A DNA stretch of 37,516 nt, from contig JAISUT010000041.1 of the NCBI GenBank assembly GCA_031271905.1, positions 1 through 37,516 on the forward strand. The letters run 5' to 3'. The DNA is from Acidobacteriota bacterium (GTDB taxonomy: Bacteria; Acidobacteriota; UBA6911). The notes under the pieces were generated by a model. The model was not told the origin of the DNA and did no database searches. It was given only the letters and a program-made list of their open reading frames with translations. Positions within the stretch are counted from its first letter, which is position 1, and each line of letters opens with the position of its first letter. The position numbers and the translations under genes were made by a program. Shown piece after piece: positions 17,735 to 36,200 of this stretch.

Positions 17735-17855
17735 GGGAACCTCTGAAAACCCCGGACGCTGCGTTGCGCCTTGGTCGAAAACGCCCATTCGCCTCGGCAA
17801 ACTCCGCTTTTCGACCTGCGGCGACGCCTTGTCTGCGGGGTTTTTAGAGGTTCCC
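17735..17855 (+). repeat. 121-bp TIR element, copy a (between pyrB and pyrC)
   Basis: The ends GGGAACCTCTGAAAACCCC and GGGGTTTTTAGAGGTTCCC are inverted repeats (18 of 19 matching). Inside lies a second perfect inverted pair, GGTCGAAAA and TTTTCGACC. Much of the sequence between the pairs is also imperfectly complementary, so the whole unit can fold as one long hairpin. It lies 15 bases upstream of the pyrC ATG. Confidence 0.85.
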
Positions 17856-18883: not shown

Positions 18884-19008
18884 GGGAACCCCTAATAAAA
18901 ACCCCCGGGCGCTACGTTGCGCCTTGGTCGAAAATGCTCGTTTGCCTCAGCAAACTCCGCTTTTCGACCTGCGGCGACGCCTTGTCTGCGAGGTTTTTAG
19001 AGGCTCCC
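18884..19008 (+). repeat. 121-bp-type TIR element, copy b (pyrR 3' end)
   Basis: This 125-bp copy has the same orientation as copy a, with ends GGGAACCCC... and ...AGAGGCTCCC slightly diverged and the internal GGTCGAAAA/TTTTCGACC pair intact. It overlaps the end of pyrR and provides its last 31 codons and its stop codon. Confidence 0.85.
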
Positions 19009-21269: not shown

Positions 21270-21390
21270 GGGAACCTCCGAAAACCCCGGATACTGCGTT
21301 GCGCCTTGGGCGAAAATGCTCATTCGCCCCGGCGAACTCCGCTTTTCGATCTGCGGCGACGCCTTGTCTGCGAGCTTTTCTGAGGTTCCC
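21270..21390 (+). repeat. 121-bp TIR element, copy c (upstream of the sigma factor gene)
   Basis: The ends GGGAACCTCCGAAAACCCC and ...CTTTTCTGAGGTTCCC are inverted repeats, and flanking AT extends the match to ATGGGAACCTC/GAGGTTCCCAT. The inner pair is GGGCGAAAA/TTTTCGATC and thus slightly decayed. It has the same orientation as copies a and b and sits between two divergent genes. Confidence 0.85.
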
Positions 21391-24104: not shown

Positions 24105-25397
24105 TCAGCGGGCTATGGACTCCAGGGCGTCCCAGAAGCCGGGGAAGCTCACGTTCGCGCACTCGGCGTCGTGGATGCGCGTCTCCCCCTCCGCCACCAG
24201 CCCCGCCACGGCGAACGCCATCGCGATGCGGTGATCCTTGCGCGTCTCTATGTCCGCGCCCCTCAACCGCCGCCCGCCGGCGACGCGCAAGCCGTCCTGC
24301 CTCTCCTCGACCTCGACGCCCAGGGCGCGCAAGTTGTCGGCGACGGCGGCGATGCGGTCGCTCTCCTTCACCCGCAGCTCCTGCGCGTCGGAGATCTCCA
24401 CGCCGCCGGCCGTCTGCGACCCCAACACCGCCAGCACCGGTATCTCGTCGATCAGCGCGGCGACCTCCGCCCCCTTGATGGCGGGCAGCCCCTTTTTGAG
24501 GAAATCGGCGTTGTAGCAGGCGTACAGGTCGCCCCGCGCCTCGCCCGCCTCGACGGTTTCGTTCTCGACGAAGAGATCCATCCCGGCGCGCCGCAGGTAG
24601 TTCAGCAGCTCGCGCCGCCGCCCGTTCAGCCCCACCCCCGGCAAGGTCAACGCCGCGCCGGGGACGATCGCCGCCGCGACCAGGAAGAACGCCGCGCCGG
24701 AGAGGTCGCCCGGCACGGCCAGGCGCCGTCCTTGGAGGCGCGGGTTCGGCGCGACCTCCAGCCACTCGCCGTCCGCGCGAACCTCGCCCCCGAACTCCCG
24801 CAACGCGATCTCGGTGTGGTCGCGCGTCGGCACGGTCTCGCGCACCGCCGTCGCGCCCTGCGCGTAAAGCCCCGCCAAAAGCACGCACGACTTCACCTGC
24901 GCGCTGGCGACCGGCAAGGTGTAGCGTATCCCATTCAGCGCACCGCCGCGCAGCCGCAACGGGGGGAGGGATCGCTCGCGCGACTCGACGTGGGCGCCCA
25001 TCAGCCGCAACGGCTCCATTATCCGCCCCATGGGGCGGTTGGAGAGCGAGGCGTCGCCGGTGATGGAGCACTCGAAGCCGTGCCCCGCCAAGATGCCGGA
25101 GAGGAGGCGGATGGTCGTGCCGCTGTTTTCCGCGTCCAGCGTCTGCGCCGGGGCTTGCAGGCCGCGCAGGCCGCGCCCCTGGATGGTGACGGCGTCGCCG
25201 TCCTCCGCGACGGCGACGCCGAGCGCCCGGAGGCAGCCGAGCGTGCTGTGGCAGTCGCGGCTGGCGGCGAAACGCCGGATGACCGACTCGCCCTCGGCGA
25301 CGGCGGCGAGCATGGCGTAACGGTGCGAGATGGACTTGTCCCCCGGCAGGTCGATGGAACCGGCGAGGGTCGTGGCGGCGCTCAGCTTCTGGATCAT
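24105..25397 (-). CDS. aroA: 3-phosphoshikimate 1-carboxyvinyltransferase (EPSP synthase)
   Basis: The 430-residue protein has the EPSP synthase blocks GSIDLPGDKSISHRYAMLAA (shikimate-3-phosphate site), TLDAENSGTTIRLLSGILAG (the PEP-binding loop in the NSGTT form), LSNRPMGRIMEPLRLMGA, ASAQVKSCVLLAGLYAQG, DEIPVLAVLG, RVKESDRIAAVADNLRALG, and KDHRIAMAFAVAGL. It transfers enolpyruvate to shikimate-3-phosphate in aromatic amino acid synthesis. NSGTT in place of NAGTA, common outside enterobacteria, resembles class II glyphosate-tolerant forms, but that cannot be judged from this motif alone. A promoter is visible at 25428-25455 on the minus strand. Confidence 0.95.
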   Translation of the reverse strand: MIQKLSAATTLAGSIDLPGDKSISHRYAMLAAVAEGESVIRRFAASRDCHSTLGCLRALGVAVAEDGDAVTIQGRGLRGLQAPAQTLDAENSGTTIRLLSGILAGHGFECSITGDASLSNRPMGRIMEPLRLMGAHVESRERSLPPLRLRGGALNGIRYTLPVASAQVKSCVLLAGLYAQGATAVRETVPTRDHTEIALREFGGEVRADGEWLEVAPNPRLQGRRLAVPGDLSGAAFFLVAAAIVPGAALTLPGVGLNGRRRELLNYLRRAGMDLFVENETVEAGEARGDLYACYNADFLKKGLPAIKGAEVAALIDEIPVLAVLGSQTAGGVEISDAQELRVKESDRIAAVADNLRALGVEVEERQDGLRVAGGRRLRGADIETRKDHRIAMAFAVAGLVAEGETRIHDAECANVSFPGFWDALESIAR

Positions 25398-25427
25398 GGT
25401 GTCGCTTCCCGTGAAATGCTACCTGTG

Positions 25428-25455
25428 AAAATATGCCTGATCGCGTGTAAGACAA
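25428..25455 (-). promoter_or_regulatory. aroA promoter
   Basis: On the minus strand TTGTCT (25450-25455) and TATTTT (25428-25433) are 16 bases apart. The leader to the aroA ATG at 25397 is about 25 bases. Confidence 0.5.
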
Positions 25456-25469
25456 TGGATTCTACTATG

Positions 25470-25791
25470 AAACCGCGCGAGGTAGAATCGCAATCCACCG
25501 GGAATCCACCGAGACCCGTCCACATCCTCTGGGACGTCCATGAGGCGCGGTTTTCCGGGGGCGGGGGGCGGGCGTGTTCGACGTATGTCCCCATACGCCT
25601 ACCTGCCTCCGGCAGGCCGCCCGACCTTTATTCCTTTGGGCGCGCCTGGCATCTGCACCCGTCTGCACCCCTGAGACCTTGCGATAATGACGGGGTGTGG
25701 GGCGAAGCCCCGCCAGCAACCGCAAGGCGGTTGCGAAAAGCCCCGACGGGGCTTCTGCACAATGCCCAGGGTTGGCGGACGCGAAGCGTCC
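25470..25791. other. hairpin-dense non-coding region between the aroA and ribB promoters
   Basis: No convincing gene occupies these ~320 bases. A 9-bp inverted pair (AAACCGCGC 25470-25478, GCGCGGTTT 25545-25553) encloses the first part. Six perfect short hairpins follow: CGTATG/CATACG (25582-25597), CCTGCC-TCC-GGCAGG (25602-25616), GGGGC-GAA-GCCCC (25699-25711), GCAACCGC-AAG-GCGGTTGC (25716-25734), AAGCCCC-GAC-GGGGCTT (25738-25754) and GGACGC-GAA-GCGTCC (25777-25791). Five have three-base loops. The last ends exactly where the ribB -35 begins. Confidence 0.7.
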
Positions 25792-25820
25792 TTGACAGAC
25801 GGCGGGACGGCGGGTAACTT
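25792..25820 (+). promoter_or_regulatory. strong ribB promoter
   Basis: TTGACA (25792-25797) and TAACTT (25815-25820) are separated by an ideal 17 bases. Transcription should begin near 25827, just ahead of the FMN riboswitch. Confidence 0.7.
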
Positions 25821-25837
25821 TTTCGTTTTGCTGATTA

Positions 25838-25983
25838 CCTGTACTCAGGGCGGGGTGGAAGTCCCCACCGGCGGTATCCCGGCGACGCCCGGGGAGCCCG
25901 CGAGCGGCCTTTCGTGCAATGGAAGGCGGCAGATCCGGTGAGAAACCGGGGCCGACGGTCACAGTCCGGACGGGAGAGGATAG
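25838..25983 (+). promoter_or_regulatory. FMN riboswitch (RFN element)
   Basis: The conserved RFN blocks appear in order: CTCAGGGCGGGGTG then GTCCCCACCGGCGGTA at the 5' side, AGCCCGCGAGCG in the middle, and GGCAGATCCGGTGAGAAACC, GGGCCGACGGTCACAGTCCG and GACGGGAGAGGA at the 3' side. It binds flavin mononucleotide and shuts off riboflavin genes. The controlled gene is ribB, whose ATG is 190 bases further on. Confidence 0.95.
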
Positions 25984-26097
25984 GATGATGGTTCCGCATC
26001 GCCGCAGACATCGGTCTGAACGTCAAAACGCCGCGCCCCGCCGCAGTTCGTCGGTGGCGGCGGCCTCCCCCTCCCGTCACAACCGTTCAATGGCAGA

Positions 26098-26146
26098 GGC
26101 ACGGCGCGCCGTGCCCGGATGTGCGCAACGCCGCCGCTATGCGGCG
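26098..26146 (+). other. leader hairpins between riboswitch and ribB
   Basis: A perfect 18-base palindrome (GGCACGGCGCGCCGTGCC, 26098-26115) and a second hairpin CGCCGC-TAT-GCGGCG (26132-26146) lie in the leader just before the ribosome binding site GGAGG (~26158-26163). No T-tract follows, so control by hiding the ribosome site or Rho access seems more likely than an intrinsic terminator. Confidence 0.5.
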
Positions 26147-26173
26147 CGGGGAGCGAGACGGAGGTTCGGCATC

Positions 26174-26839
26174 ATGGAGGGACAAGGTTTGCTGGCGGGG
26201 TTCGGCGACGCCGAGGAGCGGGTGGAGCGTGCGCTGGAGGCGTTGCGCGCAGGCAAAGGGGTCTTGGTCGCCGACGACGAGGGGCGCGAGAACGAGGGGG
26301 ACATCATCTTCCCCGCCGAAAACCTGACCGACTCCCAGGCGGCGATGCTCATCCGCGAATGCAGCGGCATCGTCTGCCTCTGCATGACGCCGGAGAAAGC
26401 CGACGCGCTCAAGCTGCCGTTGATGGTCGAACGGAACGACAGCAAGTACGGCACCGCCTTCACCGTCTCCATCGAGGCCGCCGAGGGGGTGACCACCGGG
26501 GTCTCCGCGCACGACCGGGCGCTCACCATCCGCACGGCGGCGAGGGACGGCGCCCGTCCGGAGGATCTGCACCGGCCGGGGCACGTCTTCCCCTTGCGCG
26601 CCCGCGAAGGCGGCGTGCTGGAGCGCGGCGGCCACACCGAGGCGACGGTGGATCTGATGCGTCTGGCGGGGTTCAAGCCGTGCGGCGTGCTGTGCGAGCT
26701 GACCAACCCCGATGGCACGATGGCGCGCCTGCCGGAGATCATCGAATTCGGCAGGCGGCACGGGATGCCGGTGCTCACGGTCGAGGACATCGTGAAGTAC
26801 CGTCTGGCGCGGGAGCGCGTGTTGCAGGAAGCGGTGTGA
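26174..26839 (+). CDS. ribB: 3,4-dihydroxy-2-butanone 4-phosphate synthase
   Basis: The 221-residue protein is a complete single-domain DHBP synthase. [20 protein letters not shown] carries the acidic metal-binding residues, [20 protein letters not shown] and [20 protein letters not shown] form the substrate pocket, and [17 protein letters not shown] and [16 protein letters not shown] complete the site. It converts ribulose 5-phosphate to the four-carbon precursor of riboflavin. There is no fused GTP cyclohydrolase II domain. The FMN riboswitch upstream makes it a feedback-controlled gene. ATG 26174 follows ACGGAGG; the longer reading from 25919 translates riboswitch leader and is rejected. 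The next gene is unrelated efflux machinery 446 bases on. Confidence 0.95.
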
Positions 26840-36079: not shown

Positions 36080-36200
36080 GGGAGCCTCTAAAAAGCTCGC
36101 AGACAAGGCGTCGCCGCAGGTCGGAAAGCGGGGCTCGCTGAGGCGAATGAGCATTTTCGACCAAGGCGCAACGCAGCGTCCGGGGTTTTTAGAGGTTCCC
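36080..36200 (-). repeat. 121-bp TIR element, copy d (between lepA and rpiB)
   Basis: This copy is inverted relative to copies a-c, with ends GGGAGCCTCTAAAAA and ...GGGGTTTTTAGAGGTTCCC. The inner pair is GGTCGGAAA and TTTTCGACC, with one mismatch. It ends one base before the rpiB stop codon and lies in the convergent gap, where its long hairpin could act as a bidirectional terminator. Confidence 0.85.

Follow-up and report, generated by a model that had tools for sequence, protein, structure and literature searches.

The gap between the divergent genes aroA and ribB in an Acidobacteriota bacterium is filled with short hairpins, which raises the question of whether they form a regulatory device for the two flanking genes. 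We addressed this question within a window of 37,516 nucleotides (the whole stretch of DNA analyzed, from contig JAISUT010000041.1). The original prediction, made from the sequence alone, listed six perfect hairpins in this gap, and all six are present, spanning exactly 210 bases (25582 to 25791), with the loops as described (five triloops and one 4-nt loop). Positions 25470 to 25791 contain five triloop hairpins with stems of at least 5 bp, compared to a mean of 0.52 in dinucleotide-shuffled sequences, and none of 1,000 shuffles reached five. When only triloop stems of at least 6 bp are considered, these 210 bases are the densest such stretch in the window. The hairpins in the gap are non-random and exceed what chance produces. 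An enclosing 9-bp pair (25470 to 25478 with 25545 to 25553) had also been reported; the pair exists, but Markov simulation yields a pair of this type in 21% of sequences, 31 of 116 equally long tiles of the window contain one, and we dropped it as a chance-level feature. Folded as RNA, the entire gap is moderately more stable than shuffled sequences (z of -2.3 on one strand and -2.5 on the other), a mild signal that is accounted for by the hairpins themselves. The features of the locus are collected in Table 1.

Table 1. Features of the aroA-ribB locus, with positions in the window
Feature	Positions	Strand	Details
aroA, left neighbor	24105-25397	-	Orthologues at 69-77% identity in 9/9 congeners
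Variant degenerate copy of R core	25566-25684	+	85% match to C33:30389-30509; 95% over first 37 nt to C46:62195-62231; aligned to R copies
Hairpin 1	25582-25597	none	CGTATG-TCCC-CATACG, 6 bp, 4-nt loop; apex hairpin of R core variant
Hairpin 2	25602-25616	none	CCTGCC-TCC-GGCAGG, 6 bp; extra hairpin in R variant, common to C33
Left half of modular hairpin-array element (A, B, C, truncated D)	25690-25791	+	92% match to C60:48279-48372; further copies; 22 other copies aligned
Hairpin 3 (module A)	25699-25711	none	GGGGC-GAA-GCCCC, 5 bp
Hairpin 4 (module B)	25716-25734	none	GCAACCGC-AAG-GCGGTTGC, 8 bp
Hairpin 5 (module C)	25738-25754	none	AAGCCCC-GAC-GGGGCTT, 7 bp
Truncated module D	25765-25791	none	Left arm plus inner hairpin 25777-25791; outer right arm GCCnACCCTGGG of other copies absent
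Hairpin 6 (inner hairpin of truncated D)	25777-25791		GGACGC-GAA-GCGTCC, 6 bp
TTGACA, candidate ribB -35 of the original prediction	25792-25797	+	No full sigma-70 match in scan
FMN riboswitch of ribB, outside repeats	25837-25985	+	RF00050, 96.7 bits

Searches of the bacterium's own genome and of relatives found the same hairpin pattern in both. The gap gave 54 matches in its own genome (best non-self match at 1e-32), which fall into two sets (25566 to 25684 and 25696 to 25790), and a composite consensus gave 46; altogether, there are related sequences at about 50 places. Among 44 copies tested, 34 are intergenic, compared to 18 to 20% of random intervals (from the window and the same loci); the intergenic call relies on a simple codon-usage gene finder, and the other 10 copies overlap called genes wholly or partly. 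Both neighbors were called for 25 of the intergenic copies: 17 lie between co-directional genes, 6 between convergent genes, and 2 between divergent genes. Because just 2 of 25 copies lie between divergent genes, the repeats have no preference for divergent promoters.

These data bear on the proposal that the array is a divergent-promoter insulator, or a binding array for a protein such as gyrase, IHF, or a transcription factor, which would be functional wherever it is present, as known for enterobacterial BIMEs. Divergent genes do flank the array, which stops one base before TTGACA, and REP clusters of other bacteria bind proteins, according to excerpts of PMC2817692. However, the gene orientations given above do not fit an insulator, the number and spacing of modules vary freely among array copies, and relatives have not retained the gap. 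Nothing specific to this locus speaks for a protein-binding array, and we consider either form of the proposal very unlikely.

Hairpins 3 to 6 belong to a modular array, the matches of which in the genome make up the second set (25696 to 25790). In the alignment with 22 other copies, the order of modules is constant, A-B-C-D-E, while individual modules are absent from different copies. Module A is GGGGC-GAA-GCCCC; module B is GCAACCGC-nnn-GCGGTTGC, a pattern with 30 sites in the genome compared to 1 in the control; module C is AAGCCCC-nnn-GGGGCTT; module D is a 38-nt hairpin, CCCAGGGTTGGC...GCCnACCCTGGG, that surrounds GACGC-GAA-GCGTC; and module E is AATCCAACCCTGTAAGGGTTGCGC. Junctions between modules often lie inside the common string GAAGCCC. 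The copy in the window breaks off at 25791, inside D, and TTGACA starts at the next base (25792). The predicted contact between the last hairpin arm and the ribB -35 is therefore correct as to position, but a mechanical scan found no sigma-70 promoter site in the gap.

Complete copies of module D (15 sequences) contain 12 cells with two-sided pair changes, compared to 5.0 after shuffling, and their covariation score is 0.161, compared to 0.084 for shuffled alignments (0 of 500 as high), with slid controls far lower. Module C occurs both as AAGCCCC/GGGGCTT and as GAGCCCT/AGGGCTC. Given the paired changes in D and the variants in C, the hairpins have been kept as hairpins while spreading. Such upkeep is what recognition of the folded form by a transposase or another protein would predict, and it would need no transcription. 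Stem covariation, which the original prediction called for, was thus found for the repeat families as wholes, but not for this gap. A six-frame translation search against Pfam gave no match, and we rejected the idea that the arrays had been annotated as small protein families.

Modules C, D, and E also occur in other genera. One locus (L245, about 300 to 850) carries a symmetric array related to the one in the window, and a clear symmetric palindrome, C-D-E-E'-D'-C', is present in two genomes (L246, about 1385 to 1660, and L247, about 1480 to 1725). Because of the symmetric arrangement in L246 and L247, the array in the window may be half of a C-D-E-E'-D'-C' palindrome unit.

Hairpins 1 and 2 belong to a second repeat, element R, and are enclosed by an imperfect stem (25566 to 25574 with 25618 to 25626). 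The full element is approximately 215 bp (AAACCGCCGTTTGTNTCGCACGGGCGCA ... TGCGCCCGTGCGACC ... CTGCGACAAACCGCCGTTTG), has many copies at 93 to 99% identity to the consensus, and has conserved inverted ends, AAACCGCCGTTTGTNNCGCAC...TGCGACAAACCGCCGTTTG. The end motif occurs at 25 + 28 sites, compared to 0 + 1 in the control. The window copy has lost its ends, and it is a variant with an additional hairpin after the apex hairpin, an arrangement common to C33:30389 and partly to C46:62195. In the bacterium's own genome (G000), at least five contigs break off within an R copy (at the first bases of C13, C14, C21, C30, and C33), as expected of a high-copy repeat; the R copy number in the assembly is therefore a lower bound, and these contig ends leave room for collapsed elements. 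We could fix no target duplication for R in this genome, and among the end sites examined, no pair lies at the distance expected of an insertion sequence that could serve as an autonomous partner. R had no match in a plasmid collection at blastn sensitivity, and three exact apex patterns had none in viral contigs. At one locus (L179:1571-1601), two R copies are joined, right end to left end, through a single common AAACCGCCGTTT; this head-to-tail join may reflect insertion or recombination at the palindrome AAACCGCCGTTT.

The window also carries four copies of a second MITE-like palindrome of approximately 120 bp, at 17742 to 17849, 18895 to 19001, and 21277 to 21384 on the forward strand and 36086 to 36193 on the reverse strand. 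Its ends are GGGAACCTCTAAAAACCCCGGACGCTGCGTTGCGCCTTGG, and the strings in its interior are similar to those of the R core.

We compared the locus with nine congeners. The upstream neighbor of aroA is uvrB in eight of them, and nothing in the window matches the C-terminal part of UvrB. In the ninth, G002, which has the AroA closest to that of the window (77% identity), the neighbor is a divergent folE-like gene (folE being our reading of L157). The gap upstream of aroA in G002 holds a different palindromic repeat, whose outer ends, GGGARCCTCTAAAAA, are those of the 120-bp palindrome described above. Overall, the neighbor of aroA differs from that in the window in all nine congeners, and none of the nine has kept the aroA-ribB gap.

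On the other side of the gap, positions 25837 to 26836 comprise the FMN riboswitch and RibB. The closest RibB among the congeners is also in G002 (83% identity), on a contig other than that of aroA; because this contig ends 78 bases upstream of the match, the G002 riboswitch cannot be judged, and with this qualification the FMN riboswitch was found in none of the nine congeners. In the other eight, RibB relatives reach just 53 to 55% identity and lie inside longer open frames. Named relatives (Desulfobacteraceae, Halodesulfovibrio) reach 72%. This pattern suggests that the ribB unit was exchanged or acquired and is shared with G002. Considering the differing aroA neighbors together with the pattern of RibB and the riboswitch, the junction in the window is lineage-specific.

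A structured RNA or regulatory leader specific to this locus, transcribed from the gap and regulating aroA or ribB, could draw on the genuine excess of hairpins, the mildly low folding energy on both strands, and the pairing of stems kept across copies. The same modules, however, are present at dozens of unrelated places, and the gap is unconserved in congeners. The FMN riboswitch is the sole Rfam family in the window; searching the gap with permissive thresholds gave a weak, subthreshold match to an lncRNA. In addition to the lack of sigma-70 sites noted above, no intrinsic terminator (a GC-rich stem followed by a T run) was found in 25380 to 26200. Nothing specific to the gap favors such an RNA, and we regard it as highly improbable.

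The gap very probably served as a landing site for palindromic, non-autonomous mobile repeats, and members of two dispersed families lie side by side in it (an R variant, followed by an A-B-C-D half array). The six hairpins are worn, truncated copies of these repeats and no switch built for aroA and ribB; the repeats most likely spread in the form of small, non-autonomous transposons. For these repeats, the analysis established dispersal, inverted ends, a constant order of modules, truncation, a bias toward intergenic positions, absence of conservation at the locus, and palindromy kept by paired changes. Their spread would have occurred by transposition in trans, with a transposase that reads the palindromic ends, although we saw no movement and found no empty site. 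After movement, copies would decay and undergo partial deletion by recombination between common strings; individual modules may have been lost through slippage or recombination at GAAGCCC. Copies probably persist at this locus because the junction between aroA and riboswitch-ribB is specific to the lineage and little constraint acts on the DNA upstream of TTGACA. If the repeats affect aroA or ribB at all, they would do so incidentally, and they probably have no function here. With the repeats recognized, the locus itself is ordinary; the R-core family is the interesting part.

A blastn search detected the R core in 14 of 297 genomes of the phylum; with the covariance model R1, the core was found in 38 of 396 genomes and 25 of 210 sampled genera, often with at least nine copies per genome. 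Genomes rich in copies include G001, G008, G104, and G121. In relatives (L150 to L154 and L196 to L242), the element is a palindrome of approximately 185 nt with ends that differ from those of R (YTARCCCGSATTWYTCAYRA) and termini of YTARCCCGSATTWYTCAY at both ends. One of these elements folds at -103.9 kcal/mol (z of -11.4). The elements often have CTAG or TTAA on both sides, and in several of them the identical word stands at both ends; CTAG and TTAA are palindromic words and may belong to the element ends rather than to a target duplication. Because the ends often read this way, the mobilizer of the R relatives may be an IS5-like enzyme with a YTAR target. A YTAR target is a trait of the IS5-like family.

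Two-sided changes were found in 21 of 38 R-core pairs across 24 sequences, compared to 11.8 after shuffling, and the covariation score was 0.254, compared to 0.120 for shuffled alignments (0 of 500 as high) and about 0.09 or less for slid controls. RNAalifold proposed 18 pairs on the same alignment; the counts use the structure of one full relative, itself a counted sequence, so that the percentage of paired cells leans to it, but the slid controls lack the two-sided changes. Almost no variation is seen within the family in the apex (CTCGACGTAC/GTACGCC) or in the strings GCGTTGC and GCGCGCCTTG. Good R copies had no Rfam match, and a literature text search for the R-core strings gave unrelated papers among the matches listed. 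The R-core family is seemingly an unnamed, multicopy palindrome. It is possible, though we think it unlikely, that the R core (approximately 108 nt, CTACTGCGTTGCGCTCGGTCGG ... CCTCGACGTAC-nnnn-GTACGCCTGCGG ... GCGCGCCTTGTATCC) represents a structured module not yet described, which many families of one phylum have retained with an almost unchanging apex and compensatory changes in its stems. Such a module might work as RNA or as single-stranded DNA, with a dedicated protein to read it, and might ride in miniature transposons with ends exchanged between lineages.

Recognizing the repeats removes a false lead, in that there is no regulatory array for aroA and ribB. The hairpin clusters of this genome are relics of repeats, to be masked before searches for regulatory RNAs. 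What recognizes the apex and moves the R-family elements is now a concrete question.

Among known systems, REPs of the GTAG or CGTC superfamilies are palindromes of 20 to 40 bp in which a GTAG or CGTC motif stands unpaired at one end (PMC3733652). The suggestion that the gap holds a REP-type cluster was right as to kind, since these are dispersed, mostly intergenic palindromic repeats that are extragenic and high in copy number, but a strict GTAG/CGTC REP is unsupported. A REP/REPIN system of the classical type, with a RAYT (Y1) transposase in the same genome driving it, would account for short palindromes that are intergenic, clustered, and present in many copies. The Y1_Tnp domain (PF01797), however, had no match in this genome, which is 99.8% complete, while 5 of 14 control genomes had one, and the absence of this transposase argues against RAYT-linked REPs. 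Inspection of modules A to D in 23 aligned copies found no GTAG or CGTC tag at the feet of the hairpins, and complete units are longer palindromes with inverted ends. We regard a RAYT-driven system as extremely improbable. Going by excerpts of PMC3733652 and PMC2817692, REPs and BIMEs resemble the repeats described here in their intergenic clusters of short hairpins, mosaic makeup, and compensatory stem variation, and differ in their tag and Y1 transposase; they also alternate copies of one repeat, whereas here different modules follow a fixed order. REPINs, as excerpts of PMC3116915 describe them, are paired palindromes that form a larger palindrome spreading as a unit, comparable to C-D-E-E'-D'-C' in L246 and L247; unlike REPINs, the repeats here combine different module types in one unit and have no RAYT. 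The enterobacterial elements RU-1 to RU-3 are small mobile sequences of 127, 168, and 103 bp that have been called MITE-like (PMC2759123). They are alike in being units of about 100 to 170 bp at multiple intergenic places, a likeness by description, not by sequence, to elements of other organisms. Compared to bacterial MITEs, as far as excerpts of PMC10969869 describe them, we found no autonomous partner and no proven target duplication, and a simple MITE lacks the complexity of the modular A-E array. The likeness lies in repeats that are short, non-coding, dispersed, and mostly intergenic, with conserved inverted ends, and the relatives across the phylum are palindromic throughout. At about 215 bp and in many copies, R falls within the range of dispersed, multicopy, non-coding MITEs (approximately 50 to 600 bp), and both R and its relatives carry terminal inverted repeats.
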